Assembly: GCA_963576785.1 (NCBI GenBank)
Contig: OY756149.1
Span: 868,001-932,000 of the forward strand
Reading direction: 5' to 3'
DNA length: 64,000 nt
From: Chlorophyllum brunneum
Lineage: Eukaryota > Basidiomycota > Agaricomycetes > Agaricales > Agaricaceae
Shown: positions 9,340-58,420 of the stretch, piece by piece
How positions within the stretch are numbered: the first letter of the stretch is position 1
Layout: every line of letters starts with the position of its first letter
Notes under the pieces: generated by a model
Told to the model about the DNA's origin: nothing
What the model saw: the letters and a program-made list of their open reading frames with translations, nothing else
Databases searched by the model: none
Program-made: the position numbers and the translations under genes

Positions 9340-12300
9340 TTATCCAACTCCCGCAAGCGGTGCGTTGGACTTAAACGCAAACGCAGAAGGATTGCGTTTA
9401 AGAAAACTAACAAGCTGGTCAATAGAGACCGGCAAGCCACGACGTCTCTTGTACAGAGGACAAGAGCACAAGATATGAGTGCAAGTCTCCAAAGGAGCCC
9501 CACACTCGCAGCCAATAGGCTCTAGAGGATGAAACCGGGAGCGGTACTCGCCGGTTGGAGCGTGCCCGAGGATGGCACGGTTCGCTCTCGTCGCGACGGA
9601 CTGAGAGGGAAAAGAAGGAAGCCACGAACCCCCGTGGAGGTACGTTGGCTGTAACACCCTGTCCTTACTATCCTTGAGAGCAAGGAAGTTCGAACCGCGA
9701 TACGCGGAGTCCTGGAAAGTGACTTTCCAGGCCTTCTGTATAGTTGCCACGTTGATTTTACGCAGCGAGTCAATAGATGTCGCCGGACGACGTCCGGCGG
9801 CAACCTGAAGATCGGTGGCAAATACATGCACACCATGATGAATGGACCATTCCGCTGATGACGGAACGGACCAGAAGGTGAGGGAGCGGTCAGGGCGATC
9901 CCTGAACCAATCCACCAAAAGACGACACACTGCCAGGGAATGGCCCTGGCCTGAGTGTACGGATGGGTCGAGAGCTCGCTTGGCAGAACCAATCGAGTCC
10001 GTAAAGACCGCAATGTGCACAGCCTCAGAGACTGCCGCGGCAGTTCCCAAAGCCATACGGATGGCAAACAGTTCAGCATCTGGGGCTGTAACCTTGCCGG
10101 CTGGGTGACGCGTCGCGCGAAGCAAGCGTGTCCCCCTATAAACGTGGGCAGCAGAAACTGCCTGGAAGTCCCCCACCAGTGGCAGACTTGCGTCCGTCGC
10201 TGCGTAGACAACCTGTCTGTCCTCACGATACCCACGAAGGGTATCGTTGAGCAAATCCACCTGGCGACCCGCAGGGTTTCCCCCAAGCGAGGCGTCATAC
10301 GTCTTGTAAGTCACTTGGGCCGAGAACCAGTCCAAGAGACGGGAACCTGGGGACGCCTCGAGCGCAAACGGCTCGAACGTCTCCGTTAGGTCTGGCAAAC
10401 GAGAGTTTGCCTCCGTGACCGGCCCCTTGACCTTACCCGCCTGGGCGGGGGTCATAAGAGCGATCGATCTGGGGTGTGGAACACAACCCCCTATATACTG
10501 ACGCCCCATAACGGAACGAACAGGGTGATTGTCGGAAAGCGTAGCCACCCTGTGGACAGCACGGGCAGCTAACTTCCTGAGATGAAGATGGATGGGGATG
10601 AGGCCAGCTAAGGCCTCAGCTCCTCCGGTAGGACTAGTGCGAAATGCACCAGTGATCCACAATGCAGCCTTACGTTGCATAGTGTTGAGTTGTTTCAGAA
10701 GGGCCTTGTTACGGGCCCCTTCATAAAACCAGAGTCGAAACCCATACGTAGCGATAGGCACTACGCATGAGCGGTACAGAGTCCTCTTCTGAGTAGGAAG
10801 AAGGCCTCGCGAAGAGTTACCAAGCATGCCCATGGCCTTGACCGTGGACAGAGACTTAGTAGCGTAATGCCGAACGTGCTCCTTAAACGTAAGAGCGCGA
10901 TCGAAGAAAAAACCCAAGTACCTCCAGTGGGTCTTGGGGCGAAGCGGAGTATCGCCGGTATGGGGAGCATACCCCAAATCTAGCGGAGGGTTGTCATCTC
11001 CCCGTTTACGGGAGAAATGAAAAACTTCAGACTTGTCGTGCTCGACGGCAAGCCCAAACGCAGTAGTCAGGCGATAAATAATCTGGTATGCCTGCTTGAG
11101 GCATACCAAATTAGGTTCCCAAGTTTTAGCTTGGGCGATGACAAGGCCATCGTCGACGTATGAGAGCAGAGTGCTCCCAAGAGCGATCGCCTCCCTGTCA
11201 TAAAGCTTCATGAAGGGGGCAAGATAGAGACCGGAGAGGACAGGAGAGAGCGAAGAGCCCTGACCGACCCCAACGTCCGCCTGTCTGAGATCAGACTTGT
11301 GGTCCCCCCACGCATACTGCGTAGAGCGGCCAACCAAGTAAGAGGCAAAGAATCTACCCACACAGGGGTCGAATCCTTGCTTCCGTAGAATCGCCAACAA
11401 CATAGAGTGGTTGAGCGAAGGAAAGAACTGAGCGATGTCAAAAGCAACAACACTAGTCTTGAGGCCCTTGGCCCACCCCGCGCGAACGATGTGGGTTAGG
11501 AGCATCCCAGCATCATCAGTGGACCTCTGACGGATACCACCGAGCTGATTTGGATGAAAAACTCCATGTTTGACAGAGTCAAACTGGAGGCGATTCGAGA
11601 TCATCTTCTCGATGAGCTTACCGAAGGTGTTCAAGAGCACAATGGGTCTGAACGCCTTGGGCGTTGAATAGGATGGCTTGCCCGGCTTCGGTATGATAAC
11701 CGACAAGCTTTCCTTGAAATGGGACGGCCAATAACCTACACTCATGCAGGCATTGGCTATCCCGATGAATAGCCGAAGGACATCAGGGTCCTCGGTGATC
11801 TCCTTGAGGTGGGTCCACGTTACGTGGTCCGGCCCCGGGGCGGACACACCCGAGCATGCGCTAAGGGCATCCATCAGCTCTAAGGCTGAGAAGTGGACCC
11901 ACTCCCGAGCCGTAAGGCTGGGCAGCGGATCAAGAACGGAAACATCCACAGCTCGGCCAGAAGCCGAATTGTAGGTATTGTGGAGTGCATCCCAGAGATC
12001 CGGGAGTGCGTGACATGGCTCTCCATTGTACTGGATAGCCTCGCAGGGTGGAAGCTTCCGCTTTTGGACCCATTCCATAAGGTCCCACGGTCGCTTGTTC
12101 GTAGAAGCAATCTCCTCGATGCGAGCATCAAAGAAGTTGCGCTTAGCGCGCTTCTTAGCACGTCTAAAGTTAGAGTAGTCATCGTGAGAGCGAGTTTCAC
12201 GATATCTCCCGAAAGTTTCGCGGCATTCCTGGTTCCACCAGGGTTTAGAGCGGCGAGTGATCATGATGTCCACTGCATGGGCTTCCCACGCGGTGGAAAA

Positions 12301-13212
12301 GGCCTCTGCCACGGCGTGAACCGCAGCCTCAACCTCATCAGTAGTGGTAGGTTCCGGAAGTCTAGCTACTTCACGGAGGTCCCGAATAATATCAGTGAGG
12401 AAGAGCGCTACCTCTTCGCCACCATCATGCGGCAGGGTTTTCCTGTGAGTCTCCACTATCGTGGGAGTGACCGGCAACGTCAGAACCAGTGGAACGTGGT
12501 CTGACGGACCCCTAAGGGAGTAATCCAACCTGGGTCTATGGGAGATAGACAGGTCTGATTGAACAAATGCAAGATCGATGACCGACGGACGAAGATCTTC
12601 ATTGTGTGGAATGTGAGTAGGCCCAGGCTCGACCGGAAGGGCGAGGTCTAGACCGATGTCTGTCCCGATGGAGATCAGAGACTGCGCGGTACCTGAGTGG
12701 GAGCCATAATTCGGGTCCCATCGCTCAGAATGGCAATTGAAATCGCCGCCCATATAGACATGTCTGGGCAATGTAGCAGCCCGGTCCACAAGGAACCGTA
12801 TTGCTGTGTGCTCTGAATCAGAGTAAACGTTCATGAGATTCAGGGTCTCGCCCCCCAAAAAGAGGGAGAGAACCATGATGTCACGGTGGTTGATGAGATC
12901 CGTCCGGTAGGACGGCCTCAAAGAAGACAACCGGTTATGGACAAATGTCATAACCCGTGGGTCAGAGCCAGGCTCCGGGGCCCGAACCATGCACAGCCAC
13001 TCGGGATGCTTGGGGGCGCCAATAACGTCGTCCCCCTCAACAGAAGTCGTGGAGGGAGCGGATCTAATGAACCGCCAGGGAGGTTCTTGAATAAAGAGAA
13101 TATCAAAGAGATCTTTGAGGTCCTCAAGTAAAGTGTCCAATAAATCATAATTTTTATTTAAGTTCTGTTGGTACACACGGAGACTTCGTAATTCTAGAGG
13201 TCGCCTATTCAT
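9340..13212 (-). CDS. LINE-B ORF2: APE endonuclease, reverse transcriptase, RNase H
   Basis: An intact protein of about 1,290 residues for target-primed reverse transcription. Positions are counted from an in-frame TTG two codons before the ATG at 13210-13212. APE endonuclease 12-255: IQEPPW (Glu45), GGDFNCHSERWD, VIDLAF, SDHVPL. RT about 505-790: AFRPIVLLNTFGKLIEKMI, FDIAQFFPSLNH, GQGSSLSPVLSGLY and the catalytic YVDD at 687-690. RNase H about 1003-1138: ATDASLPL, DAELFAIRMAL, FTDSIGSAKRAL. A terminal Cys/His motif (CECGAPLETCTHILCSC) precedes the stop. All catalytic residues I can recognise are present. The start overlaps the ORF1 stop by 8 nt. Confidence 0.95.
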   Translation of the reverse strand: MNRRPLELRSLRVYQQNLNKNYDLLDTLLEDLKDLFDILFIQEPPWRFIRSAPSTTSVEGDDVIGAPKHPEWLCMVRAPEPGSDPRVMTFVHNRLSSLRPSYRTDLINHRDIMVLSLFLGGETLNLMNVYSDSEHTAIRFLVDRAATLPRHVYMGGDFNCHSERWDPNYGSHSGTAQSLISIGTDIGLDLALPVEPGPTHIPHNEDLRPSVIDLAFVQSDLSISHRPRLDYSLRGPSDHVPLVLTLPVTPTIVETHRKTLPHDGGEEVALFLTDIIRDLREVARLPEPTTTDEVEAAVHAVAEAFSTAWEAHAVDIMITRRSKPWWNQECRETFGRYRETRSHDDYSNFRRAKKRAKRNFFDARIEEIASTNKRPWDLMEWVQKRKLPPCEAIQYNGEPCHALPDLWDALHNTYNSASGRAVDVSVLDPLPSLTAREWVHFSALELMDALSACSGVSAPGPDHVTWTHLKEITEDPDVLRLFIGIANACMSVGYWPSHFKESLSVIIPKPGKPSYSTPKAFRPIVLLNTFGKLIEKMISNRLQFDSVKHGVFHPNQLGGIRQRSTDDAGMLLTHIVRAGWAKGLKTSVVAFDIAQFFPSLNHSMLLAILRKQGFDPCVGRFFASYLVGRSTQYAWGDHKSDLRQADVGVGQGSSLSPVLSGLYLAPFMKLYDREAIALGSTLLSYVDDGLVIAQAKTWEPNLVCLKQAYQIIYRLTTAFGLAVEHDKSEVFHFSRKRGDDNPPLDLGYAPHTGDTPLRPKTHWRYLGFFFDRALTFKEHVRHYATKSLSTVKAMGMLGNSSRGLLPTQKRTLYRSCVVPIATYGFRLWFYEGARNKALLKQLNTMQRKAALWITGAFRTSPTGGAEALAGLIPIHLHLRKLAARAVHRVATLSDNHPVRSVMGRQYIGGCVPHPRSIALMTPAQAGKVKGPVTEANSRLPDLTETFEPFALEASPGSRLLDWFSAQVTYKTYDASLGGNPAGRQVDLLNDTLRGYREDRQVVYAATDASLPLVGDFQAVSAAHVYRGTRLLRATRHPAGKVTAPDAELFAIRMALGTAAAVSEAVHIAVFTDSIGSAKRALDPSVHSGQGHSLAVCRLLVDWFRDRPDRSLTFWSVPSSAEWSIHHGVHVFATDLQVAAGRRPATSIDSLRKINVATIQKAWKVTFQDSAYRGSNFLALKDSKDRVLQPTYLHGGSWLPSFPSQSVATRANRAILGHAPTGEYRSRFHPLEPIGCECGAPLETCTHILCSCPLYKRRRGLPVSIDQLVSFLKRNPSAFAFKSNAPLAGVG

Positions 13213-15169
13213 TGGCAAGCTGTAGAGTACGAGGGTTGGTGAGGGGAGATCGCCGTCGAAGACGGTTGTTACTCACCTCGCGATAAAACTTCTTAATCTT
13301 CTCGGGTTCAAACCGAGCGTCAAAGAACTTGCACTTCTTCGAGGTCGTATGGTGGGGACCCCGACAGTTGAGACAACGCGGCGTATGAGGACAAGGCTCA
13401 TCCGCCGGTGTGGGAGGAATGGGGGGCTGCACATTGGAGTTACCCTTGCAGCGCCCACAAAGAGTTCGGTGATGCTCCTCGCGATGAGGACCACCACAGG
13501 TCGGGCATTTCAAGGCCTGCGCCTTGCAGAATTGCATGGGATGGCCCCAATGAAAGCATCGCTTACACTGAGACACCCCCGGGGAGGCTGCGGATGGCCT
13601 GATAGAGCAGGCATATCCACCGATATGGAGCGACTTCTTGAGAAGGAGATTCGCCCGCTGACCCTTCTGAGAGTCATGGATATTGAAGTACACCGTGGCG
13701 GTATCAGACGCCTCGGAGTTCCTCGAAATACGGGGGGGCCCCGTTAACGTGAACAGGTCAGAAAACGCAGTGCGCTTCATGATCTGTTCGATTTCGAATG
13801 AGGACCAGCGAGTCTCGCCTATCCTGAAGAAAGGGACGTCGATGACCTTGAGGTAGGACTTCGACTGAGGAAGGCCCACTGTAAACACAGTTCCCTGAGG
13901 GACGGCCTTCGAGATCCACGTCCTGGCGACCTCGAGGTCAGCAGGGGTGGGGACAGCGTTGGTACGCAGAGCAAAGCCCCCATACTCGGCAGAGGTAGAC
14001 TCTACTCGAATGTGGAGGCGTGAGTCCACGAAGCCACGGTTAACCATGGTTTCGAGGTGGAACGAGGAGACTTCGGGAGCAGCCTCGAAGTCAACGATTA
14101 ACTGGCGCCGTGAGGGGCCAGCGGTGGTCATCCTGGGCCTCTTACTAGAAGCTTTGGACTTAGGAGGAGAGGCTTGCTCGCCCATGGCGAGAATCCTGTC
14201 CGGAGGAAGCGAGGGGAACATTTGTGCAAGCTGCACAACGGTCCCCGACGCCGTAGTGGCCTTCCCCTTCCCTTTCGGTTTGGGGACAGGCTCCTTAGCT
14301 ACCGCAGAGAACGTTCTCTTGTTCCCTGGCTTGGCGGCTGGAGTAGACGGAGCGGGAGGAGCCACCGGCTTGCGCTGGTAGGCCCCTCTGCCCGCAAGAG
14401 GAGACGGTCCCACCCCTCCGGGGCGGGACCCGCTGGGAGCACCCTCTGGACCCGGCATCGGAACGTCAGGGTCCTGGGGGGGGGGTCCAGCCCGGGGAGG
14501 CTGGGGAGTAACTCGAGCTCTCGGTACTGGAGGAGTACGGGGAGCAGGAGGTGGAGGGGCGGGAGCGGCGGGGGCCAGACCCATAGATGCGCTCAGGACG
14601 GTGCCAACAGTAGGCATCCCGAAGCCAAGTTCGACAGTGGACCATCCACTGTCGTCGATAGCCTTACACAACCGAATGATCGATCGTGCAAGGGGGTAGA
14701 CCGACTTTCCCGGGAGGGTAGTCCAGTCGATATTCTCCACCGTCTTGTTAAGAAAGGTGGAGATGATGTCCAGCGAGTCCGAGGCCGCTTCGAGGTCCCC
14801 TGCAACACTTTCGACAGTGTTCAGAAGATGGCAGGAGTACGGGGACGAAGAGCTGGAGGAGGAGGGCGCAGGGCTAGGTGCGCTGGGGGTAGGGCCCCTA
14901 GGGGGAGTCATGGGATCTTCGTCGAACCCTCCTAACTCGCCAAAATCCTCCACAGCGGGCCCAGGCGATGGCGAGGTTGCGCGTGAGGGGTTGCGTGAAC
15001 CCCTCCTACCGGTGGGAGTTCGGAGAATGTCAGGCGGCCCTCTAGAGCGACTAGATTCGCGCTGACGACGGATAGGTCCTGTTGAGGACCCACGGATGGT
15101 ATCGAGAGTGTCGGGGGACTCAGGGACTTGGCGCCCGGTCCCCCCGCCGAATGGGTGTTGCGATGACAT
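13205..15169 (-). CDS. LINE-B ORF1: nucleic-acid-binding, zinc-knuckle protein
   Basis: About 654 residues from the ATG at 15167-15169; an upstream TTG-started extension of 16 codons exists but has no ATG. The N-terminal third is Ser/Pro/Gly-rich and looks disordered, with a long Pro-rich stretch. The C-terminus has Cys/His clusters: CKRCFHWGHPMQFC (CX2CX4HX4C), CPTCGGPHREEHHRTLC and CLNCRGPHHTTSKKC. Such proteins package LINE RNA into ribonucleoprotein. The stop TAG overlaps ORF2's ATG as ATGAATAG, which suggests translation by termination-reinitiation; that is inferred. Confidence 0.92.
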   Translation of the reverse strand: MSSQHPFGGGTGRQVPESPDTLDTIRGSSTGPIRRQRESSRSRGPPDILRTPTGRRGSRNPSRATSPSPGPAVEDFGELGGFDEDPMTPPRGPTPSAPSPAPSSSSSSSPYSCHLLNTVESVAGDLEAASDSLDIISTFLNKTVENIDWTTLPGKSVYPLARSIIRLCKAIDDSGWSTVELGFGMPTVGTVLSASMGLAPAAPAPPPPAPRTPPVPRARVTPQPPRAGPPPQDPDVPMPGPEGAPSGSRPGGVGPSPLAGRGAYQRKPVAPPAPSTPAAKPGNKRTFSAVAKEPVPKPKGKGKATTASGTVVQLAQMFPSLPPDRILAMGEQASPPKSKASSKRPRMTTAGPSRRQLIVDFEAAPEVSSFHLETMVNRGFVDSRLHIRVESTSAEYGGFALRTNAVPTPADLEVARTWISKAVPQGTVFTVGLPQSKSYLKVIDVPFFRIGETRWSSFEIEQIMKRTAFSDLFTLTGPPRISRNSEASDTATVYFNIHDSQKGQRANLLLKKSLHIGGYACSIRPSAASPGVSQCKRCFHWGHPMQFCKAQALKCPTCGGPHREEHHRTLCGRCKGNSNVQPPIPPTPADEPCPHTPRCLNCRGPHHTTSKKCKFFDARFEPEKIKKFYREVSNNRLRRRSPLTNPRTLQLANE

Positions 15170-15528: not shown

Positions 15529-15533
<5 letters not shown>

Positions 15534-16503
15534 TTCCTGGTTCTACCAGGGCTTAGAGTGGCGAGTGATCATGATGTCCACTGCATGGGCTTCCCACGCA
15601 GTGGAAAAGGCCTCCACCACAGCGTGAACCATGGCTTCGACCTCATCAGTGGTAGTGGGTTCCAGAAGTCTAGCTACTTCACAAAGGTCCCGGATAACAT
15701 CAGTAAGGAAGAGTGCTACCTCTTTGCCACCATCATGCGGCAGGGTTTTCCTGTGAGTCTCCACTATCGTGGGAATGACTGGAAGCATCAGAACCAGTGG
15801 AACGTGGTCTGACGGACCTCTAAGGGAGTAATCCAACCTAGGCCTATGGGAAATAGACAGGTCTGATGGAACAAATGCCAGATCAATGACTGAAGGTCGA
15901 AGATCCTCATTGTGTGGAATATGAGTAGGCCCAGGCTCAACCGAAAGGGCGAGGTCTAGACCAATGTCTGTCCCAATGGAGATCAGAGACTGCGAGGTAC
16001 CTGAGTAGGAGCCATAATTAGGGTCCCACAACCCAGAATGGCAATTAAAATCGCCACCCATGTAGATATGCTTGGGCAATGTAGCAGCACGGTCCGCAAG
16101 GAACCAAATCACTGTGTGCTCCGAATCAGAGTAAACATTCATGAGATTCAGGGTCTTGTCCCCCAGAAAGAGGGAGAGAACCATGATGTCACGGTGATTG
16201 ATGAGATCCGTCCGATAGGATGGTCTCAGAGAAGCCAACCAGTTATGGACAAATGTCATAACCCATGGGTCAGAGCCAGGCTCTGGGGCCCAAACCATGC
16301 ACAGCCACTCGGGGTACTTGGGGGCACCAATAACGTCATCCCCCTCAACAGAAGTCATGGAGGGAGCGGATCTGATGAACTGCCAGGGAGGTTCTTGAAT
16401 AAAGAGAACATCAAAGTGATCCTTGAGATCCTCCAGTAGAGTATTGACTAAATCATAATTTTTATTACAATTCTGCTGATATACATGGATACTTCGTAGT
16501 TCT
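15529..16503 (-). pseudogene. LINE-B3 endonuclease fragment
   Basis: Covers the APE domain up to the SKPWWNQ linker: MGGDFNCHSGLWDPN, SVIDLAFVPSDLS and SDHVPLVLML are readable. The ORF2 start MNR is followed by TGA (CGA in B1), a CpG transition. Confidence 0.87.
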
Positions 16504-16512
16504 AAAGGTCAC

Positions 16513-17624
16513 CTATTCATTGGCAAGCTGTAGAGTATGAGGGCTGGTGAGGGGAGATCGCCGTCGAAGACAGTTATTACTCACCTCGTAATAGAATTTC
16601 TTGATTTTCTCGGGTTCAAACTGAGCATCAAAGAATTTACACTTCTTCGAGGTTATATGGTGCGGACCTTGGCAGTTGAGACAATGCGGTGTATGAGGAC
16701 AGGGCTCATCCGCCGGTGTGGGAGGAATGGGAGGCTGCACACTGGAGTTACCCTTGCAGTGCCCACAGAGAGTTCGGTGATGCTCCTCACGATGAGGACC
16801 ACCACAGGTCGGGCATTTCAAGGCCTGCGCCTTGCAGAATTGAATGGGGTGGCCCCAGTGGAAGCAACACTTGCACAGAGACACCCCTGGAGAGGCTGCA
16901 GATGGCCTGATAGGACAGGCATATCCACCGATATGGAGCAACTTCCTGAGGAGGAGGTTTGCCCGTTGACCCTTCTGAGAGTCATGAATGTTGAAGTACA
17001 CTGTGGTGGTATCAGATGCCTCAGAGTTCCTCGAAATACGGGGGGGTCCCGTTAACATGAACAGATCAGAAAACACTGTGCGCTTTATGATCTGTTTGAT
17101 CTTAAAAGAGGACCAGCAAGTCTCGCCGATCCTGAAGTAGGGGACATTGATGACCTTGAGATAGGACTTTGACTGAGGGAGGCCAACTGTAAAAACAGTT
17201 CCCTGAGGGACAGCCTTCAAGATCCATGTCCTGGCAACCTCCAGGTCGGCAAGAGTGGGGACAGCGTTGGTATGCAGAGCAAAACCCCCGTACTTGGCAG
17301 AGGTAGAGTCTACTCAAATATGAAGGCGTGAGTCCATGAAACCACACTTAACCATGGTCTCGAGGTGGAAAGAGGAGACTTCGGGGATAGCCTCGAAGTC
17401 AACGATTATCTGGCACCGAGAGGGGCCAGCAGTGGTCATCCTAGGCCTCTTCTTAGAAGCTTTAGACTTGGGAGAAGAGGCTTGCTTGCCCATAGTGAGA
17501 ATCCTGTCTGGAGGAAGCAAAAGGAACATTTGTGCAAGCTGCACAACAGTCCCTGACACTGTAGTTGCCTTCCCCTTCCCTTTTGGTTTGAGGACAGGCT
17601 CCTTAGCCAGAGAACATTCTCTTG
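16513..17624 (-). pseudogene. LINE-B3 ORF1, C-terminal part
   Basis: Reads through the Cys/His clusters (CKCCFHWGHPIQFC, CPTCGGPHREEHHRTLC, CLNCQGPHHITSKKC). Frame breaks and a stop near 17314 separate it from the upstream part. Interrupted at 17624 by the compound insertion and continued at 21341. Confidence 0.87.
17609..17624 (+). repeat. Left TSD of the compound retroposon
   Basis: AGAGAACATTCTCTTG, paired with AGAGAATGTTCTCTTG at 21341-21356. Intact B1 has AGAGAACGTTCTCTTG at the same ORF1 site, so each copy has lost the central CpG by a transition on a different strand. The core of the target is a perfect palindrome. Confidence 0.92.
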
Positions 17625-17712
17625 TCGGCCTAATGGTTGAGTGGTTTGGGTGTAGGCTTAATTCCTACCAGGCTGCTTGGCTAGAAGGTCCTGGGTTCGA
17701 AACCTGTGGGAG
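17625..17712 (+). promoter_or_regulatory. tRNA-Leu-like head with pol III A and B boxes
   Basis: TGGTTGAGTGGTTTGG fits a type II tRNA D-arm and A box; GGGTTCGAAACC is a near-perfect B box. Between them GTAGG-CTTAATT-CCTAC forms a perfect five-pair anticodon arm with anticodon TAA (Leu), followed by a long variable arm. Acceptor pairing is poor, so this is a promoter-bearing relic rather than a working tRNA gene. Confidence 0.75.
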
Positions 17713-18500
17713 GGTATTTATTCTCAACCATGGGAAATACCAGTGCGTGAAGCATAGTTGCTTAGCAATATTCCCGGGTGATACCGGATTAGGTTGTGTG
17801 GTCCTGTTTGGCATTGTTTGGTGCTGTCACAGGCTAGCGTGGGAGTTGTCACACCCAGCCATATAGCAAGTCACACTGTCACGGTGTGACCCAGCTGTGT
17901 GCATCGCCCAAGTCCAATATTGGCCAAAGGTGGTGGTACTCTAATGCTGGGGCCTAACTTGGGAGGATTACCTAAGCCACTGCTGGAGATAGGGCATTAT
18001 AAGAAGGGGAATGTCGTGATAACAGTCCAACTCGGGGCGTGCTGAAAAAAGCCGCCGAGATAGGATACCCCTCCCGGTCCGCTTTGGCATAGTTCCGGTA
18101 GTTAGTAGACATAACCCAATCTCCAGATTGAGGATGCTGACTAAGTTGGCTTAAAATAACCTCAGGACCAATCTGGTAGCAGTGTTTGCAAGGTGTAGAT
18201 CTCAGACAGTTAAGCACAGGGATCCGGGCCGTAAGGCATACCGAACCGGCTGCTGAGGAACGGGAAGCAACTCTGGGGTAGCGCCTGGGTGAAGTTATGG
18301 GCCATAGCAGGTGATGTACCGGGGCATGCTGAAAAAAGCTGCCAGTTATCAGAGAATGCTCACCTGGCTCGAGAGGACTAAATCCTACATCAGTTGGCCT
18401 GGTACAGGAAAAATAGCCAGGTTCCAGCTCAAGTTGATTCCACATTGCCATTGGCTAAGGCTGGTGGTAAGAGACCCCTCAAGGGGCTCCGTAGACGGGT
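17625..18500 (+). mobile_element. Module T1: long tRNA-headed SINE-like element
   Basis: About 876 bp, matching T2 (41235-42124) over its length. The head resembles a type II tRNA; the body is non-coding. No run of four T occurs on the sense strand anywhere in the module, as expected of an RNA polymerase III transcript. It has two copies of the motif GCTGAAAAAAGCCGCC (18041, and a variant at 18328). It ends with CTCAAGGGGCTCCGTAGACG, similar to the 3' end of module R, and passes directly into LINE-B. Confidence 0.82.
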
Positions 18501-18943
18501 CTACAGGTTGCCGCTGGATGTTGTCCAGCGACATCTATTGATTCGCTGCGTAAAATCAATGTAGCAACCATTCAGAAGGCCTGGAAAGTCACTTTCCAGG
18601 ACTTCTCTTATCGCGGTTCTAACTTCCTTGCTCTCAAGGATAGTAAGAACAAAGTTTTACAGCCAACGTACCTCCATGGGGGTTCTTGGCTTCCTTCTTT
18701 TCCCTCTCAGTCTATTGCGATGAGAGCGAACCGTGCCATCCTCGGGCACGCTCCAACCGGCGAGTATCGCTCCCGGTTCCATCCTCTAGAGCCTGTTGGC
18801 TGCAAGTGTGGGGCTCCTCTGGAGCCCCACACCCATATCTTGTGCTCTTGTCCATTGTACAAGAGACATCGTGGCCTGCCGGTCTCTCTTGGCCAGCTGG
18901 TTAATTTTCTTAAATGCAATCCTTACGGCCAACATACTGCTTC
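18501..18943 (+). pseudogene. LINE-B ORF2 C-terminal fragment (first in chimera)
   Basis: Begins within RNase H (CTACAGGTTGCCGCTGG) and runs through the Cys/His tail to the last codons, with a small deletion before GGCCAACATACTGCTT. It stops before the LINE-B stop codon and has no 3' UTR or poly(A); module R2 follows at once. Confidence 0.85.
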
Positions 18944-20334
18944 ATCGCTCCTTGACTTGTTACCACCACCATCACTTTTCCACTTCCCTTTCCTCATCGC
19001 ACCATTCATTTCTCGGGCTCTCTCTCATGGGCTCGTGTCTTTTCTGAGCCTTTGCTGGCTGTAGGGGAGTGGTCCGGGTGGCAACGTTAGTTGGTCAATG
19101 GGCGGTGTGCCCTTGGTGAAGGCGATTAAAGGTGGGCATATCCCCACCGTTCATCTGACTGATGCCTATACGCACAGATCGACGAGGCGGCCCCTTGGTA
19201 AAGGGTCTTAAAGGCTGGGATACTGGCCACCTCGCTCGCTTGTGCTCGCTGGGTCGTCAGTGGTGGCGGCCCTTCTACCAATTAGATGGGCTTGCAGTCC
19301 CGTATAGGGTTTGCATGTGGGTTTTTACCCCTACTGCAGGTCAAGTCTGGCTAGTATCTCGAGGCTGGACTATACTGGCTGACAACGGACATCCAGGCCC
19401 ACCCCCAATCGTGCTTGCATGTCGGTGGGGAGCATGCTGAAAAAAGCCGCCCTGTCGCACCCGAAAGGGACCGAAAGGATAGGGGACGATAATAGGGGGA
19501 ACGGAGTGATAACAAGCCAACCGAAAGGACAGGCCACCCCCCACCAGTGTCGCCATGCCTTCGGGAACCCCTCTAGGGGTAGCGCCTGGTTGTTAGTAGG
19601 GATACGCCAAACTCCAGGGCATGGGCGGGTTCGGGTTGACTTGGGAAAACTCGGGTTGATTGGCGCCCGTTCCACGGAATGCTTAAGTAATCCGTTCCGC
19701 GGGTTGCTTAGGTAATCCAATGTGAACACCACCCTGGTAGCGCCCCCTGCGAGACGGAGATCCCTGCCAGTATTAGCATGCGGATCCATGCCCAAAGACA
19801 AGTCACCTCCTCTGGGGGTAGGGCATAGCGAAAGTGGCTGCAGGGGAACGGGAAGCTAGTCCAGGGGTCGCGCCTTGGAGGTACGCCTTTGTGGCCTCTG
19901 CCTGCCCAACTAGTGGACCGTAGCGGGCCGTTTACTGGGAGTGCACTGAAAAAAGCCGCCTAGTTACCGAGAAGGAGCGGCCCGGCTCGAAAGGTCAAAA
20001 TCCTCTGTCGGTGGGTCCCCGTGAAGATCGGGGTGTACCCATTTGAGTTGTTACCATGCGAGAGGTCTGGTTTTGGGGTGGCGGCGTGCGCAGTCAAGCG
20101 GTGAGATCCCGTCCGTGCACCATATAGGAAGGATGCCTCAAGCGAACGGCGGGCCGGTCCTCAGGGATACCGCACTCTCTCAGTAGCGGGGTGTTCGCCC
20201 AAGCTAAAGGCTTTACCTCTTAGGAGGGAGGGGCAAAGTCCCCACAACATGGCTGGATGCGACACCAATATGGGAGCCTGGGAATATGCTGGGCATTCTA
20301 TGGGCACACGACGTCTCAAGACCCCCATTTCTGG
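18944..20334 (+). mobile_element. Module R2, near full-length
   Basis: About 1.39 kb of non-coding sequence shared with R3 and R4 (both minus strand) and partly R1. It starts at CTCCTTGACTTGTTACCACC, as the others do. It contains two GCTGAAAAAAGCCGCC-like motifs (about 19437 and 19945) and several strong local hairpins (GGTGGGCATATCCCCACC, CCCCGTGAAGATCGGGG, ACCCCTCTAGGGGT). Its 3' end is slightly shorter than R1, stopping after CCCCCATTTCTGGG. No protein domain was found in any frame. Confidence 0.82.
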
Positions 20335-21340
20335 GAACTGCTGCGGCAGTCTCTGAGGCTGTACACATTGTGGTCTTCACGGACTCGATTGGTTCTGCCA
20401 AGTGAGCTCTTGACCCGTCCGTGCACTCTGGCCAGGGACACTCCCTGGCTGTGTGTCGTCTCTTATTGGAGTGGTTCAGAAATCGTCCTGACCGCTCCCT
20501 CACTTTCTGGTCCATTCCGTCATCAGCGAAATGGTCCATTCATCAGGATGTGCATGTATTTGCCACCAATCTACAGGTTGCCGCTGGACGTCATCCAGTG
20601 ACATCTATTGATTCACTGCGTAAGATCAACGTAGCAACCATTCAGAAGGCCTGGAAAGTCACTTTCCAGGACTCCTCTTATCGCGGTTCAAACTTCCTTG
20701 TTCTCAAGCACAGTAAGAACAAAGTTTTACAGCCAACGTACCTCCATGGGGGTTTTTGGCTTCCTTCTTTTCCCTCTCAGTCTATTGCGATGAGGGTGAA
20801 CCATGCCATCCTCGGGCACGCTCCAACCGGCAAGTATTGCTCCCGGTTCCATTCTCTAGAGCCTATTGGCTGTGAGTGTGGGGCTCCTTTGGAGACTTGC
20901 ACTCATATCTTGTGCTCTTGTCCTTTGTACAAGAGACGTCGGGGCCTGCCGGTCTCTATTGACCAGTTGGTAGGTTTCCTTAAGCGCAATCCTTCTGCGT
21001 TTGCATTTAAGTCCAACACACTGCTTGCGGGAGTTGGATAACGTGACACGGCCCCTGCTAGCTCCCCACATCTCTGATGTGTGTAGGAGTTAATTGCGAA
21101 CTGACACATACTCTCCCTAAGGAGGGGAGGCTGGGGGTCACTCATTTTTCTGGTCTAGGATTCACGCGTCCATGCGTGTTTCCGCGGCCATTCACCCAGA
21201 CCGCCTGTCGGTGGTCTAGTTCGGCCAGGGGAGAGCCTATCTTTGTATATCTTTACATTGTACCCTACATGTCACAGTAGATACAGGTGGACTGCGAGCG
21301 CGCACTACCTTAAACATGTTGATATAAAAAAAAAAAAAAA
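20335..21340 (+). pseudogene. LINE-B RNase H fragment with 3' UTR and poly(A) (second in chimera)
   Basis: Begins at the RNase H helix (GTAAAVSEAVHIVVFTDSIG-like) and runs to the LINE-B stop at 21039-21041 with the Cys/His tail CECGAPLETCTHILCSC. The 3' UTR (21042-21325) and A-tail follow. TGA at 20403-20405 interrupts the frame (CGA to TGA). It supplies the 3' end that would have been recognised at integration. Confidence 0.86.
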
Positions 21341-21882
21341 AGAGAATGTTCTCTTGTTCCCTGGTTTGGTGGCCAGAGTAGAAGGAGCAGGAGGAGCCAC
21401 TGGCTTGCACTGGTAGGTCCCCTTGCCTGCAAGAGGAGAAGGTCCAACCCCAATGGGGCGAGGACCACTTAGAGCACCCTCTGGACCAGGCATCGGAACA
21501 TCTGGGTCCTGGGGGGGAAGCCCAGCCAGAGGAGGCTGGGGGACAGCTCAAGCCCTTGGTACTGGAGGAGTATGAGGAGCAGGAGGAGCGGGAGTGGGAG
21601 CAGTGGGGGCCAGTCCCATAGATGCTGACAGAACGGTACCAATGGTAGGCATCCCGAAGCCAAGTTTGACAGTGGACCACCCACTGTCATCGATAGCCTT
21701 GCACAATCAAATGATCGATTGCGCAAGGGGGTATACTGACTTACCCGGGAGGGTAGTCCAGTCGATGTTCTCCACCATCTTGTTAAGGAAGGCAGAGATG
21801 AGATCCAGTGAGTCCAAGGCTGCTTCAAGGTCCCCTGCAACACTTTTGACAGTGTTCAGAAGGTAACAGGAGTACGGGGATG
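21341..21882 (-). pseudogene. LINE-B3 ORF1, N-terminal part, and right TSD
   Basis: Opens with the right TSD (21341-21356) and continues the ORF1 sequence broken at 17624. It carries the Pro-rich segment and the upstream helix region (LTRWWRTSTGLPSR shadow in another frame). It stops at about 21882, short of the ORF1 start. Confidence 0.83.
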
Positions 21883-21883
21883 A

Positions 21884-21982
21884 GGCAGGTGGATTTGCTC
21901 AATGATACTCTTCGTGAGTATTGTAAGGACAGACAGGTGGTCTACACAGTGACGGACACAAGTCTGCCACTGGTTGGAGACT
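21884..21982 (+). pseudogene. 99-bp LINE-B fragment immediately 5' of LINE-A3
   Basis: Matches LINE-B from QVDLLNDTLR to SLPLVGD in the plus direction. It is joined without spacer to the 5' end of LINE-A3 and on the left to minus-strand LINE-B3. A LINE-B to LINE-A 5' joint also exists at 45263. Confidence 0.8.
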
Positions 21983-30257: not shown

Positions 30258-31686
30258 GACCCATACACGGAGTCCCTTGCAGGCAAACTCCTAGCAGCCC
30301 AGAGATGGGGGTCTTGAGACAATATGTGCCCATAGAATGCCCAGTATGTTCCCAGGCTCCCATATTGGTGTTACATCTGGCCATGTTGCGGGGACTTTTG
30401 CCCCTCCCTCCTAAGAGGTAAAGCCTTTAGCTTGGGTGGACACCCCACTACTGAGAGAGCATGGTATCCCTGAGGACTGGCCCACCGTTTGCTTGAGGCA
30501 TCCTTCCTATACAGTGCACGGACGGAATCTCACTGCATGACTGCACACATCGCCACCCCAAATCCAGACTACTTACATGGTATCAACTTAAACGGGTACA
30601 CTCCGTTGTTGATGGAGACCCATCAACGGAGGATCTAGACCTCTCAAGCTGGGCCACTCCTTCTCGGTAACCAGGTGGCTTTTTTCAGTGCACTCCCAGT
30701 AAATGGCCTGCTATGGTCCACTAGTTGGGCAGGCAGAGGCCACAAAGGCGTACCTCCAAGGCATGACCCCTGGACTAGCTTCCCATTCCCTTGCAGCTGC
30801 TTTCGCTATGCCCTACCCCTAGAGAAGGCAACTTGTCTTTGGGTATGGATCTGTATGCTAATACTGGCGGGGATCTCCATCTCGCAAGGGGCGCTACCAG
30901 GGTGGTGTTCACATTGGATCACATAAGCAACCCACGGAACGGGTTACTAAGCAATCCATGGAATGAGCGCCAATTAACCTGAGTTTCCCCATGTCAACCC
31001 ACACCTACCCGGTGTCCTGGAGTTTGGCATATCCCTACTAACAACCAGGCACTACCCTCAGAGGGGTTCCCGAAGGCATGGCGACACTGGTGGGGGGTGG
31101 CCTGTCCTTTTGGTCGGCTTGTTTTCACCTCCATACCCCCTATTACCGTCCCTTATCGTTTTGGTCCCTTTCAGATATGACAGGGTGGCTTTTTTCAGCA
31201 CACTTCCCACCAATGTGCAAGCACAATTAGGGGTAGGCCTGGATGTCCGTTGTCAGCCAGAATAACCCAGCCTCGAGATGCTAGCCAGACTTGAGCTGTA
31301 ACAAGGGTTAAAACCACTATGCAAACCCTATATGGGACTACAACTCCATTGGATTAATAGAAGGGCTGCCACCACTGGCAACCCAGCAAGCAAGGTGGCC
31401 AGTACTCTAGCCTTTAAGACCCTTTACCAAGGGGCCACCCCGTTGATCTGTGTGTATAGGCATCAGTCAGATGAATGGTGGGGATATATCCACCTTTAAT
31501 CACCTTTACCAAGGGCATGCCACTCATTGACCAAGTAATGTTGCCACACGGACTGCCCTCCTACAGCCAGCAAAGGCTCAGAAAAGACCCAGGCCCATGA
31601 GAGAGAGCCCAGGAGATGAAAGGTGCAAAGGGGAAAGGAAGTGGAAAAAGTGGTGGTGGTGGTAACAAGTCAAGGAGCAATGTGTG
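30258..31686 (-). mobile_element. Module R3, full-length
   Basis: About 1.43 kb, the reverse-orientation counterpart of R2. Its 5' end (minus strand) reads TTGCTCCTTGACTTG at 31672-31686 and its 3' end GGGACTCCGTGTATGGGTC at about 30258. It has two copies of the motif seen here as GGCTTTTTTCAG (30678 and 31188). No ORF of note. It lies between LINE-B endonuclease sequence (5') and LINE-B RT sequence (3') on one strand. Confidence 0.83.
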
Positions 31687-32895: not shown

Positions 32896-34214
32896 GCTGT
32901 AGAGTATGAGGGTTGGTAAGGGGAGATTGCCATCGAAGATGGTTATTACTCACCTCGCAATAGAACTTCTTGATTTTCTCAGGTTCACACTGAGCATCAA
33001 AAAATTTACACTTCTTCGAGGTTGTATGGTGTGGACCTCGGCAGTTGAGACAATGTGGCATATGAGGACAGGGCTCATCCGCCAGTGTGGGGGGAATGGG
33101 TAGCTGTATGCTGGAGTTACCCTTGCAGCAATCACAGAGAGTTCGGTAGTGTTTCTCACAATGAGGACCACCACAGGTCAGGCATTTCAAGGCCTGTGCC
33201 TTGCAGAATTGGATGGGGTGACCCCAGCGGAAGCATCACGTACACAGAGACACCCCTGGAGAGGCTGCAGATGGCCTGATAGGATAGGCATATCTACTGA
33301 TATGAAGCAACTTCTGGAGGAGGAGGTTCACCTGTTGACCCTTCTAAGAGTCATGAATATTGAAGTACACCGTGGCAGTATCAGATGCCTCAGAGTTCCT
33401 CGAAATATGGGGGGATCCCGTTAACGTGAACAGATCAGAAAATGCTGTGCGCTTTATGATCTGCTTGATCTCGAAAGAGGACCAGCGAGTCTCACTGATC
33501 CTGAAGAAAGAGACATTGATGACCTTGAGATAGGACTTTGACTGGGGGAGGCCAACTGTAAACACAGTTCCCTGAGGGACGGCCTTCGAAATCCACATCT
33601 TGGCAACCTCAAGGTTGGCAGGAGTGGGGACAGCGTTAGTATGCAGAGCAAAACCCCTGTACTTGGCAGAGATAGACTCTACTCAAATGTGGAGGCATGA
33701 GTCTACGAAACCATGGTTAACCATGGTTTTGAGGTGGAACAAGGAGACTTCGGGGGTAGATTTGAAGTCAACAATAATCTGGTAATGTGAGGGGCCAGTG
33801 GTGGTCATCCTAGGCCTCTTCTTAGAGGCTTTGGACTTGGGAGGAGAGGCTTGCTTGCCCATGGCAAGAATCCTGTCAGGAGGAAGTAAAGGGAACATCT
33901 GTGCAAGTTGCACAACAGTCCCTGACACTGTAGTTGCCTTCCCCTTACCTTTCAGTTAGGGGACAGGCTCTTTGGCCACCACAGATCTTGTTCCCTGCCT
34001 TGGTGGCTGGAGTAGAAGGGGCAGGAGGAGCCACCAGCCTGCACTGGTAGGTTCCCTTGCCCACAAGAGGAGATGGTCCAACCCTAATGGGGCAAGGACC
34101 ACTCAGAGCACCTTCTGGACCAGGCATTGGAACGTCTGGATCCTGGGGGGAGGCCCAGCTGGGGGAGGCTGGGGGACAGCTCGAGCCCTTGGTACTGGAG
34201 GGGTACAAGGGGCA
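32882..34214 (-). pseudogene. LINE-B5 ORF1, C-terminal part
   Basis: Cys/His clusters CLTCGGPHCEKHYRTLC and CLNCRGPHHTTSKKC are kept; the first knuckle is disrupted (the codons around 33235-33245 include a stop). Several CpG transitions create stops. Interrupted at 34214 by B6. Confidence 0.84.
34200..34214 (+). repeat. Left TSD of LINE-B6
   Basis: GGGGTACAAGGGGCA, identical to 38177-38191. Confidence 0.95.
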
Positions 34215-39967: not shown

Positions 39968-41222
39968 CCTGCATATGGAGCTCCTTGAGGGAATAAAGCT
40001 TCTAGAAGCCCAGAAATGGGGGTCTTGAGATGCCATGTGCCTGTAGAATGCCCAGCATGTTCCCAGGCTCCCATATTGGTGTTGCATCCGGCTATGTTGT
40101 GGGAACTTTGCCCCTCCCTCCTAAGAGGTAAAGCCTTTAGCTTGGGCGAACATCCCGCTACTGAGAGAGCGCGGTATCCCTGAGGACCAGCCCACTGTTC
40201 GCTTGAGACACTCTTCCTATATGGTGCATGGACAGGATCTCACTACTTGACTGCACATGCTGCCACCCCAAAACTAGACCTTTTGCATAGTAACAACTCA
40301 AATGGGTACACCCCGATCTTCACAGGGACCCACCAACAGAGGATTTTGACCTCTCGAGCTGGGCTGCTCCTTCTCGGTAACTGGGTGGCTTTTTTCAGTG
40401 TGCTCCCAGTAAATGGCCTGCTATAGTCCACTAGTTGGGCAGGCAGAGGCCACAAAGGTGTACCTCCAAGGTGCGACCCCTGGACTAGCTTCCCATTCCC
40501 CCATAGCCACTTTCACTATGTCCTACCCCCAGAGAAGGTGACTTATCTTTGGGCATAGATCCATGTGCTAATACTGGCAGGGATCTCTGTCTTGCAGGGG
40601 GCACTACCAGGGTGGTGTTCACATTGGATTACCTAAGCAACCCGTGGAATGGATTACTTAAGCATTCCATGGAATGGGTGCCAATCAACCTGAGTTTCCC
40701 TAAGTCAACCTGAACCTACCCGGTATCCTGGAGTTTGGTGTATCCCTACTAACAACCAGGTGCTACCCCTGGAGGGGTTTCTGAAGGCATGGCAGTACTG
40801 GTGGGGGATGGCCTGTCCTTTTGGTTGGCTTGTTATCACTCCGTTCCCCCTATTATTGTCCCCTATCCTTTTGGGTGCAACAGGATGGCTTTTTCCAGCA
40901 TGCTCCCTACCGACGTGCAAGCATGATTGGGGGTGGGCCTGGATGTCCGTCATCAGCCAGTATAGCCCAGCCTCGAGATCCTAGCCAGACTTGACCTGCA
41001 GCAGGGGTAATAACCCACATGCAAATCTTATATGGGACTGTAAGCCCATCTAATTGGTAGAAGGGCTGCTACCACTGATGACCCAGCAAGCACAAGTGAG
41101 CAAGGTGGCCAGTAGCCCAGCCTTTAAAACCCTTTACCAAGGGGCCACCTCATTGATCTGTGTGTATAGGCATCAGTCAGATGAACAGTAGGGATATGCC
41201 CACCTTTAATCACCTTCACCAA

Positions 41223-41234
41223 GGGCATGCTGCC
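41223..41234 (+). repeat. Left TSD of the T2/LINE-A5 retroposon
   Basis: GGGCATGCTGCC, paired with GGGCGCGCTGCC at 44718-44729; both differences are transitions. R2 has a matching site in reverse near 19105-19120, confirming an insertion into R. Confidence 0.8.
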
Positions 41235-42124
41235 TGTTAGCCTAATAGTCGAGTGGTTTGGGTGTAGGCTTAATTCCTACTAGGCTGCTTGGCTAGAAGG
41301 TCCTGGGTTCGAAACCTGTGGGAAGGGATTTATTCTCAACCATGGGAAGTACCAGTGCGCGAGGCGTAGTTGCTTAGCAATATTCCCAGGTAACACTGGA
41401 TTAGGTTATGTGGTCCTGTTTGGCATTGTTTGGTGCTGTCACAGGCTAGCGTGGGAGTTGTCACACCCAGCCACATAGCAAGTCACATAGTGACATCACA
41501 CTGTCATGGTGTGACCCAGTTGTGTGCATCGCCCAAGTCCAATATTGGCCAAAGGCGGTGGTGCCCTAATGCCGGGGCCTAACTTGGGAGGATTACCTAA
41601 GCCACTACTGGAGATAGGGCATTATAAGAAGGGGAATGTCGTAATAACAGTCCGACTCAGGACGTACTGAAAAAAGCCACCGAGATAGGATACCCCTCCT
41701 GGTCCGCTTCGGCATAGTTCTGGTAGTTAGTAGACATAATCCAATCTCCAGATTGAGGATGCTGACTAAGTTAGCTTAAAATAACCTCAGGACCAATCTG
41801 GTAGCAGTGTCTGTAAGGTGTAGATCTCAGACAGTTAAGCACAGGGATCCGGGCCATAAGGCATACCAAACCAGCTGCTGAGGAACAGAAAGCAACTCTG
41901 GGGTAGCGCCTGGGTGAAGTTGTGGGCCATAGCAGGTGATGTACTGGGGCATGCTGAAAAAAGCTGCCAGTTATCAAAGAATGCTCACCTAGCTCGAGAG
42001 GACTAAATCCTACATTGGTTGGCCTGGTACAGGAAAAATAGCCAGGTTCCAGCTCAAGTTGATTCCATGTCGCCATTGGCTAAGGCTGGTGGTGAGAGAC
42101 CCCTCAAGGGGCTCCGTAGATGGG
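41235..42124 (+). mobile_element. Module T2: tRNA-headed SINE-like element
   Basis: Same head as T1: anticodon arm GTAGG-CTTAATT-CCTAC and B box GGGTTCGAAACC (about 41307). It shares the whole body with T1, including both motif copies (about 41657 and 41952). A short insertion relative to T1 lies near 41490 (ACATAGTGAC). It ends CTCAAGGGGCTCCGTAGATG and continues straight into LINE-A. Confidence 0.84.
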
Positions 42125-44162: not shown

Positions 44163-44717
44163 CTGGCCTAGGGTAGGTGGGTTATTGTCTGGCGATTTGG
44201 AGAATTCCGGTGGAAGTCCAGTGAAGACCCTTAGAGTTTTATGAATGGAGCTGTCCCTTTTGGCGACTAGGTGTGGTGAAGATGCCGACAGCCACACAAA
44301 TGGTGTGGCCTATTACTCTGGCAAGGGTGACCATGGCCGGGGGAATGACTCTCAGTAAGAAGAACTTTAGGGGCTAGTAGCTAGACCAGTAACTAGGGGT
44401 TTCCATTGCTGGGCATTTGCAGTGAATTAACACTTACTGACTGGGCCTGGTCTTCAGACTGGGTTGCTGGTTGGGGGACCTCCCTGCCCACTTGCCTCTT
44501 CTGGCATCCACTCCCCTTGCCCTTCGGGCTTGGAAGTAGGACACAATTCCTCCTACCATTGGCTTTGGGCAATGGTACTTATGCTTGGTAGGGTGTAGTT
44601 ACCACTTTCTCCATAGATACCCACTAGTGTACTTGTTTGTATGCCGGCCATGGGCTGTGTTCAAGCACCATGTAATAAATCGGCCTTAGGCCATGATTCA
44701 AAAAAAAAAAAAAAAAA
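44163..44717 (+). other. LINE-A5 3' UTR and A18 tail
   Basis: LINE-A 3' UTR with AATAAAT near 44675 and the GGCCTTAGGCC palindrome. The right TSD follows at 44718. Confidence 0.86.
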
Positions 44718-44887
44718 GGGCGCGCTGCCCATTGACCGACTGACATTGCCACCTGGACTGCCCCCCTACAGCCAGCAAAGGCTCAGAAAAGACACGGGCC
44801 CATGAGAGAGAGCCTAGGAGATGAAAGGTGCGAAGGGGAAAAGAAGTGGAAAAAGTGGTGGTGGTGGTAACAAGTCAAGGAGAAATA

Positions 44888-51977: not shown

Positions 51978-52271
51978 TGTTACGACCTTAGTCTGGGACT
52001 CAGGTTGCAAGCCTTTGGATAAAGACAAGGAAGTAGAGAAGAGAATAAGGGATGATACAATTGGTAAAGTGTAAGGAATACATCAAGTATTACTACACTT
52101 TATATACTAGTAGCGGAGGCTAATAATAAGGGGGACGAGTAGATGAGTCAGATAAGAGGCATAGCCTCTAGAGATGAAACAGGAGATGGAACGAGGGTTG
52201 AAACAGGTGTGAGGGTACACAAGGTAATGGGCGCGAGATAGGAATGAATGGTCTATCTATAGTTCGTAACA
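51978..52271 (-). repeat. 3' LTR of the gypsy element
   Basis: 294 bp, with ends TGTTACGA...TCGTAACA (8-bp inverted termini). Confidence 0.95.
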
Positions 52272-56300: not shown

Positions 56301-56798
56301 TCTTTCGTTGAACCATATGTCGCTATGTGATATTTTGCAATCATCCGGGCATCTGGTGAATCGTATGACGTGATTGTTCCAGTCGATTTCCGGGTTGTGC
56401 TTGACCAGCCAGTCGTGTCCAAGATATAAGTCCACACTTTCCAGTTGGGTTACTAGCGCGTCGATTTGTTCCGTATGGTTGCCGTTGTTTAATACCAGTT
56501 GTGCCTTGTCCGTTATTTCTCCCTTTTTATTTTCTGTGCCGTCGGCATTGATCACTCTGATCGGGGTCTCCAAAGGTTTAGTCGGGATCTGTTCTTCGTC
56601 TATCGTTCATTGTGCTATGCACGTGTGGGTGCATCCGGAGTCTACGAGGGTTGTGATTTGTCTGCGTCCTTTTTTTGTCTGGATTGTTGAGTCGAGAAGA
56701 AGTTCGCGCGTAGAGTTTCGTTTTTGGGGAATCACATATCGTCTATTGTGGGATAAAATAGAAACTCTAGGTTTATTGGCTCGCGGGTTTGCGCCTAC
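53313..56798 (-). pseudogene. pol: gypsy pro-pol: protease, RT, RNase H, integrase, chromodomain
   Basis: In the -1 frame relative to gag. Protease motif LVDSGCTH near 56640, then TGA at 56607-56609. The following 1,040 codons (to 53451) hold RT (YMDD at 303-306), RNase H (VEVDASGYGVGAVL, 449-462) and integrase with an HHCC zinc finger (660-702) and catalytic D732, D792, E828. A chromodomain starts at about 1018 and is cut by TAG at 53451-53453 in place of a conserved Trp before KGYTSEEDTWE. The frame then runs to a stop at 53313-53315. The chromodomain would steer integration to modified chromatin. Confidence 0.93.
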
Positions 56799-58126: not shown

Positions 58127-58420
58127 TGTTATGACCTTAGTCTGGGACTCAGGTTGCAAGCCTTTGGATAAAGACAAGGAAGTAGAGAAGAGAATAAGGG
58201 ATGATACAATTGGTAAAGTGTAAGGAATACATCAAGTATTACTACACTTTATATACTAGTAGCAGAGGCTAATAATAAGGGGGACGAGTAAATGAGTCAG
58301 ATAAGAGGCATAGCCTCTAGAGATGAAACAGGAGATGGAACGAGGGTTGAAACAGGTGTGAGGGTACACGAGGTAATGGGTGCGAGATAGGAATGAACGG
58401 TCTATCTATAGTTCGTAACA
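58127..58420 (-). repeat. 5' LTR of the gypsy element with TATA box
   Basis: 294 bp, about 98% like the other LTR. On the minus strand TATATAAA (58255-58248) would place transcription start near ACACTTTACCAA at 58221. The right TSD CTGAG follows at 58421-58425. Confidence 0.93.

Follow-up and report, generated by a model that had tools for sequence, protein, structure and literature searches.

A four-part element bounded by a single target-site duplication

The 64,000-bp window analyzed here (C11:868001-932000 of the Chlorophyllum brunneum genome, which comprises 38.9 Mb in 14 contigs) contains a chimeric retroposon whose host sequence is a long interspersed nuclear element (LINE) of opposite orientation. 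The parts of the retroposon are, in order, a noncoding RNA-derived segment termed T1, a piece of a LINE termed LINE-B, a second noncoding RNA-derived segment termed R2, another LINE-B piece, and a poly(A) tail, all on the + strand. T1, the 5′ partner (17625-18499, with its start at 17624 or 17625), has a tRNA-Leu(TAA)-like head at 17625-17715 as called by ARAGORN and a 3′ end reading ...GACGGG. LINE-B piece 1 (18500-18942) begins after native CCGA and stops after native CGCTT; 425 bp align, up to position 18924, and are followed by a private deletion of ~15 bp. R2, which is of the Ra type (18943-20335), has a complete 5′ end and lacks the final 41 nt of other R copies. LINE-B piece 2 (20332-21325) begins after native GGCTT and has four bases, TGGG at 20332-20335, in common with R2. 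The poly(A) tail occupies 21326-21340.

The element is flanked by a target-site duplication (TSD) of 15-16 bp at 17609-17624 and 21341-21356 (both + strand); the copies now read CA and TG, respectively, at the 2 of 16 positions where they mismatch. The final G of the left copy may belong to T because G directly precedes T in 22 of 23 T copies. An uninterrupted paralog of the host LINE ~3 kb away retains the empty target site, which reads AGAGAACGTTCTCTTG (14306-14321, + strand), and the host LINE aligns across this site (15530-17625 with 12222-14322, and 21341-21893 with 14306-14857). Each TSD mismatch relative to AGAGAACGTTCTCTTG is a single CpG transition, so the TSD was originally perfect, and the outer insertion was a single event. 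In a second paralog (33956-34010), which is shorter here, the 16 target bases are not present. A single TSD with an observed empty site surrounds the segments, and the element may be a multi-template (double-jump) chimera formed in one event. The initial annotation, which had described four parts on one strand with one TSD and one poly(A), is confirmed and extended by the empty-site paralog.

T and R are homologous RNAs joined to truncated LINEs

T is present in at least 40 nearly complete copies in the genome, and 16 nearly complete copies of R were found among the sequence stretches examined. The initial annotation had spoken of two different noncoding RNAs; two RNAs do alternate with LINE pieces, but T and R are homologous, with 68% identity over ~200 nt. 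The motif GCGTGCTGAAAAAAGCCGCC occurs twice in T and twice in R, CCCTCAAGGGGCTCCGTA near the 3′ end is identical between them, and both RNAs end in ...GGG at joints. A tRNA match, corresponding to the tRNA-related 5′ end of tRNA-derived short interspersed nuclear elements (SINEs), was obtained for T only, and no tRNA was called at R in the ARAGORN scan of the window. The T consensus contains one open reading frame (ORF) of 159 amino acids, and those in the consensus sequences of the two R types, Ra and Rb, have at most 71 amino acids; the T copy in L029 contains no ORF of 90 amino acids or more.

Downstream of T or R, 73 of the 75 joints read continue into a repeat with intact copies elsewhere. 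Distinct sites fall on the LINE-A or LINE-B of the window in 24/32 cases for T, 17/18 for Ra, and 5/6 for Rb, with the remainder in unclassified repeats. These chimeras consist of a noncoding RNA with a complete 5′ end and a 5′-truncated LINE in the same orientation, as in the MINE elements of Magnaporthe. Counting the window, 8 of the 23 T rows showed a TSD between the 5′ flank and the base after the downstream poly(A), as did 7 of the 17 R rows, many other T and R rows lying on stretches too short for this check; in the window and in those rows, a single TSD thus surrounds the whole chimera, again as in MINE.

CpG columns are variable in T at 85 of 88 positions, compared with 153 of 821 other columns, and pairs of T copies show 34 transitions per transversion. 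This strong CpG decay explains the mismatches between TSD copies. Copies of T and of the LINEs differ chiefly by CpG transitions, which are usable as a rough clock.

Join sites follow the partner RNA

For each joint, intact copies supplied the native LINE sequence immediately 5′ of the cut, which the product lacks. A first set, assembled before the motif was fixed, comprised 24 T joints at 19 distinct sites, 15 Ra joints at 12 distinct sites, and 4 Rb sites. CGN preceded the joint at 17 of the 19 T sites, the others being one CAA, perhaps a decayed CGA, and one AATA, and YTY was found at 12/12 Ra sites. A second set of 33 further short stretches was obtained after the motif had been fixed; four of its sites (two for T and one each for Ra and Rb) were already represented in the first set. 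Its 20 T joints (19 with native context) represent 15 distinct sites, 13 of them CGN and the others CCA and TGA; its 8 Ra joints represent 7 distinct sites, all CTY. It also includes 4 Rb joints, 3 with native context, and one R stretch without a recognizable 3′ end.

When distinct sites were pooled, CGN was observed at 28/32 T sites and CTY at 17/18 Ra sites (YTY at 18/18), whereas CGN was observed at 0/24 R sites and CTY at 0/32 T sites (Fisher test for CGN, 9e-12). The background frequencies in the LINEs are 0.059 for CGN and 0.052 for CTY. The partition holds on LINE-B alone, with CGN at 10 of 12 T sites and CTY at 14 of 15 Ra sites. Joints of Rb lie roughly after YYU, at six sites that read ACT|C, TCT|T, CCA|T, TTT|T, CCC|C, and CCT|C (the bar marks the joint).

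Several sites were used repeatedly. Among T loci, 5 share GCGCGA|CCCCTG, 4 share CCGA|TCTACA, and 3 share ATCGA|T; among R loci, 3 share GATACTC|. The three GATACTC| loci do not form one clade; the other repeatedly used sites may reflect common descent or segmental duplication.

The initial annotation had proposed three template jumps or, alternatively, movement of a pre-existing compound RNA. By plain template switching, a LINE reverse transcriptase (RT) would pause on the LINE RNA and jump to any nearby RNA, and the window element would record three jumps. Multi-part, single-TSD chimeras in Magnaporthe and mouse (PMC2104539) and the 4-nt TGGG overlap at the R2/LINE-B piece 2 joint are consistent with it. 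A pause on the template side should, however, be independent of the acceptor, and the different motifs of T and R on the same LINE-B make a pause of RT on the LINE an unlikely cause. Starts of LINEs that carry neither T nor R, moreover, showed CGN in 0/17 cases and CTY in 0/17 (17 with native context, from 34 TSD candidates, several of which look false), which disfavors the idea that LINE reverse transcription as such sets the site. Given also that the T/LINE-B joint recurs at 4 loci and that the cuts carry partner motifs, three equivalent jumps are not supported, and plain template switching is improbable. Rather, the join site is almost certainly determined by the acceptor RNA, T or R, and not by the LINE template.

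Two further candidates were rejected. Spliceosomal trans-splicing is incompatible with LINE sites that do not end in AG, and microhomology-driven jumping at ordinary joints is incompatible with the absence of the upstream LINE bases from the product.

A candidate guide within T and R

At one aligned place, T reads GGGGAAUG-UCG-UGAUAACA, Ra reads GGGGAACG-GAG-UGAUAACA, and Rb reads GGGGUAUG-GAGG-UGAAAACA. The corresponding candidate guides in the window would be GUCG in T1 (18013-18016, + strand) and GGAG in R2 (19503-19506, + strand). Pairing was scored between the 4-mer ending at this place and joint bases +1, -1, -2, and -3. With their own guides, 114/128 cells were paired for T, 70/72 for Ra, and 21/24 for Rb; with the guides swapped, the Ra 4-mer paired in 64/128 cells on T sites and the T 4-mer in 34/72 cells on Ra sites. 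Among 489 aligned T-Ra positions, this place was the best for both RNAs together (fully paired at 10/19 T and 10/12 Ra sites of the first set), and the runner-up reached 4/19 and 10/12. No more than three single-base indels separate Ra from Rb before position 1400; one of them lies inside the candidate guide, and the guide with the inserted G paired in 21/24 cells at Rb sites versus 17/24 without it. An alternative guide close to the 3′ ends, at position 1400 in Ra and 833 in T, was set aside, as the two places are not homologous. The internal candidate guide (UCG in T, GAG in Ra, and GAGG in Rb) is suggestive and fairly probable.

History of the joints in the window

A genome search for the joints, as the initial annotation had proposed, gave a divided answer: the T1/LINE-B joint is not private to the window but occurs at 4 loci with differing flanks, whereas the LINE-B/R2 and R2/LINE-B joints were found only in the window at up to 3 mismatches. 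At the other three T1/LINE-B loci, T runs through LINE-B to its 3′ end, and a TSD was found at one of them (L029, 14 bp, 1 mismatch). In pairwise comparison, the T parts of the four loci differ by 0-1 transversions in ~870 bp, and the LINE-B parts differ by 6, 5, 4, 5, 6, and 1 transversions in ~421 bp. In the LINE-B tree, the four loci do not group together, and piece 1 pairs as sister (99/90) with a LINE-B copy that lacks T; the T tree is star-like and gives no resolution.

The presence of one joint at 4 loci with different flanks is what would be expected if T-LINE-B were a mobile compound family copied as a unit, and the LINE-B parts of two loci, L030 and L031, are indeed close, with 1 transversion. 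In the other 5 of 6 pairs, however, LINE-B carries 4-6 transversions compared with 0-1 in the twice-longer T, and the tree places piece 1 with a T-less copy, although gene conversion could blur this signal. Copying as a unit is accordingly very doubtful. The greater divergence of the LINE-B parts indicates that the T/LINE-B joint probably formed more than once, and two of the four loci may share one origin.

The cuts in the window resemble those seen elsewhere. The native LINE-B cut next to T1 is CGA, the usual motif of T, and the native sequence before piece 2, GGCTT|TGGGAACTGC, is an R-type site. Piece 1 ends at native CGCTT|GCGGG, again CTY, the background chance of CTY being 0.05 at each of these two cuts. 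CTY at the end of piece 1 would be expected if R could capture a 5′ LINE fragment cleaved at its own motif too, as complete reverse splicing in trans would do. Among other R copies with a readable 5′ flank, CTY was found there in 1 of 13 (C1c_139221, which has a TSD), and its occurrence at the end of piece 1 may be chance.

Other R copies end ...TTCTGGGCCTCTAGG...CGCGGG, and the R2 joint in the window reads ...TTCTGGGAACTGC. Judged from this comparison, the R2/LINE-B joint is likely an ordinary joint minus ~45 bp deleted between two TGGG repeats, and this later deletion would account for its odd appearance. No intact R joint at the LINE-B site of piece 2 was found elsewhere.

CpG decay amounts to 18/44 in T1, 13/30 in piece 1, 36/116 in R2, and 34/75 in piece 2, with no age difference by Fisher test (T1 versus R2, 0.26; T1 with piece 1 versus R2 with piece 2, 0.48). 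In seven control compounds, the parts roughly agree in CpG decay, with the LINE part clearly more decayed in most. The lack of an age difference mildly favors a single event for the whole compound.

The competing history is nesting, in which an R-LINE-B compound entered an older T-LINE-B compound and recombination between LINE-B 3′ ends removed the inner TSD and the outer remainder. Both halves resemble ordinary two-part compounds, LINE-A or LINE-B adjoins R in 11 of 16 non-window R rows with a 5′ flank (4 in the same orientation), and the LINE-B/R joint is unique. On the other hand, neither an inner TSD nor a remainder is present, and CpG decay shows no age difference, though R2 could be younger (0.31 versus 0.41). 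The initial annotation had dismissed nesting on the ground that the 3′ end and tail of the outer element would have remained; they are absent as it stated, but the argument is weaker than claimed because piece 2 and a lost remainder of piece 1 would be direct repeats able to recombine. Nesting is thus a possible but less likely history.

In a mosaic analysis of LINE-B, piece 2 switches its nearest relative near 20780, and other LINE-B copies switch neighbors too. A second LINE-B/R/LINE-B array without a LINE-B remainder was noted at C1:1996800-2000821 (in L019 and neighbors); its LINE-B/R joint has a 6-nt overlap, CGCTCC, and no TSD was found.

Proposed mechanism

The observations can be explained by the following model, RNA-guided joining followed by one LINE insertion, which is favored overall with moderate confidence. 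T and R would spread by having their 3′ termini (...GGG) attached to the 3′ portion of a LINE transcript, and LINE proteins would insert the chimera using the poly(A) of the LINE, generating a target duplication of ~13-18 bp. The acceptor would set the place of the cut in the LINE, mostly CGN for T, CTY for Ra, and roughly YYU for Rb, most likely through pairing of the internal guide (UCG, GAG, or GAGG) with the LINE from position -3 to position +1. Those bases 5′ of the cut that the guide would read do not appear in the product, which resembles the outcome of step one when an intron-like RNA undergoes reverse splicing; the alternative chemistry would be a guided hand-over of RT, and the two are about equally probable. 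In the window, T-LINE-B and R-LINE-B compounds stand in series within one TSD, and we infer that they most likely entered together in a single insertion, either as a composite RNA or through a chain of reverse transcription, with ~45 bp lost later at R2/LINE-B.

Several results weigh against this model. Pairing equal to or better than that of the candidate guide occurs at 10/884 T and 29/1431 Ra positions, giving an expected coincidence of ~0.11, and another place in T, reading GTTG, has a marginally higher pairing score (115 cells as against 114). Complete pairing of the guide at all four bases is limited to 20/32 T and 3/6 Rb sites, four of the 32 T sites are not CGN, and the Rb sample comprises 6 sites only. 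The base after the cut of piece 1 is G, unlike the Ra sites seen, and the unique join of piece 1 to R2 fits a nested insertion equally well. An Rfam scan of T gave no match at E ≤ 10, and that of R gave three chance-level matches only (E 4.5-8.6). In local folding, neither the 3′ ends nor the guide regions did better than shuffled sequences (best z, -1.71).

A more radical possibility, regarded as tentative at best, is that T and R are new intron-like joining RNAs that parasitize LINEs and that R2 acted twice in trans, with no template jump. Such an RNA would cut LINE RNA where its guide pairs, attach its own 3′ end to the fragment downstream, and thereby gain a LINE tail through which it is reverse transcribed. 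At its 5′ end R2 would have taken the T1-bearing LINE-B 5′ piece ending CGCTT, and at its 3′ end the LINE-B 3′ piece starting after GGCTT; the four-part RNA would thus have been assembled entirely at the RNA level before a single LINE-mediated insertion.

The conserved catalytic core of group I or group II introns was not recovered: no Rfam intron family matched up to E 10, and no known ribozyme among the Rfam families was found for T or R.

Relation to known systems

The closest relative appears to be the MINE/WEIRD system of Magnaporthe, T and R being comparable with WEIRD by description; the initial annotation had chosen the right comparison, and both systems combine a noncoding RNA with a truncated LINE within one TSD. 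MINE elements are WEIRD-MGL chimeras, for which 28 join sites on MGL were reported, with six shared pairs among them and GCC|A/U as the consensus; one tripartite chimera carried a TSD of 14 bp, and RT was suggested to stall before GCC (Gogvadze et al. 2007, PMC2104539). To the extent covered by that account, the likenesses comprise a full-length noncoding RNA 5′ to a 5′-truncated LINE, a single TSD, a motif upstream of join sites, reuse of sites, and rare three-part cases. The same account describes one acceptor and GCC|A/U, whereas here two homologous acceptors use different motifs on the same LINE, and these motifs, CGN for T and CTY for Ra, are not that of MINE. The stronger result, and the point of difference from MINE, is that each of the two homologous noncoding RNAs is joined to LINEs at a motif of its own. 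No description of acceptor-specific join motifs was found by title or abstract in the literature searched, outside which lay most subscription papers and all bioRxiv preprints.

In fungi, chimeric LINE retroposons have hitherto been explained by RT pausing on the LINE and then jumping. With one acceptor RNA in MINE, an effect of the acceptor could not be told apart there; two acceptors that use two motifs on the same template allow the contributions of template and acceptor to be distinguished, and it is the acceptor that the site tracks. Should the candidate guide be correct, T and R would be sequence-specific joiners with targets predictable from the triplet, SINE biology would be linked with nuclear intron-like RNA chemistry, and a testable mechanism for the hitherto unexplained MINE motif would be at hand.

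tRNA-derived SINEs consist of a tRNA-like head, a body, and a LINE-derived 3′ part and insert in the manner of LINEs. T likewise has a tRNA-like head, a body, a LINE 3′ part, and LINE-type insertion; its LINE part, however, is not a fixed tail but begins at 32 distinct sites.

In reverse splicing of group I and group II introns, a short guide pairs with the bases just 5′ of the target site, and the 3′ end of the RNA is joined to the piece that follows. Similarly, the 3′ end of T or R is joined to a downstream piece, with the guide pairing proposed here lying upstream of the joint. Linear group II intron RNAs that attach only their 3′ end have been described (PMC3280974). T and R differ from such introns in having no Rfam intron match and a candidate guide of 3-4 nt, and catalysis by them is only proposed.

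Further copies and genomic surroundings

The window contains additional T and R copies. A second T copy (41236-42124, + strand) is joined to a LINE-A piece after native TCGC, and this T-LINE-A insertion splits an R copy (40009-41227, - strand), the 5′ part of which lies at 44716-44882. A copy of the Rb type (30267-31682, - strand) is joined to LINE-B after native TCT. Elsewhere on the contig, R copies L005 (C11:808569-809961, + strand) and L006 (C11:805503-806894, - strand) lie ~2 kb apart, are sisters, and share the same downstream joint, probably representing an inverted duplication. At C1:1975502 and C1:1991822, T heads of ~100 nt with the same 5′ flank lie on opposite strands and are followed by a poly(T) stretch; they are probably one interrupted T copy that was later duplicated.

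The listed copies of T, R, and LINE-B on contigs C1-C13 are clustered, most of those on a given contig falling within a single stretch of roughly 100-250 kb, examples being C1:1.90-2.04 Mb, C3:2.24-2.33 Mb, and C11:0.76-0.93 Mb, as expected for centromeres. Copies outside the clusters were seen at C1:4575443, C6:42387, and C9:1953773.

A LINE-B protein encoded at 9340-13218 (- strand) has endonuclease and reverse transcriptase domains. Its best named relatives, among 74 proteins listed, come from the mushrooms Cyclocybe aegerita (57% over 75% of the query), Candolleomyces, and Psilocybe. Direct repeats of 294 bp with 98% identity (51978-52271 and 58127-58420) enclose a minus-strand ORF at 53451-56573 with RT, RNase H, and integrase domains and a second ORF at 56795-58033; the segment 51978-58420 is a long terminal repeat retrotransposon of the Ty3 type and apparently young.

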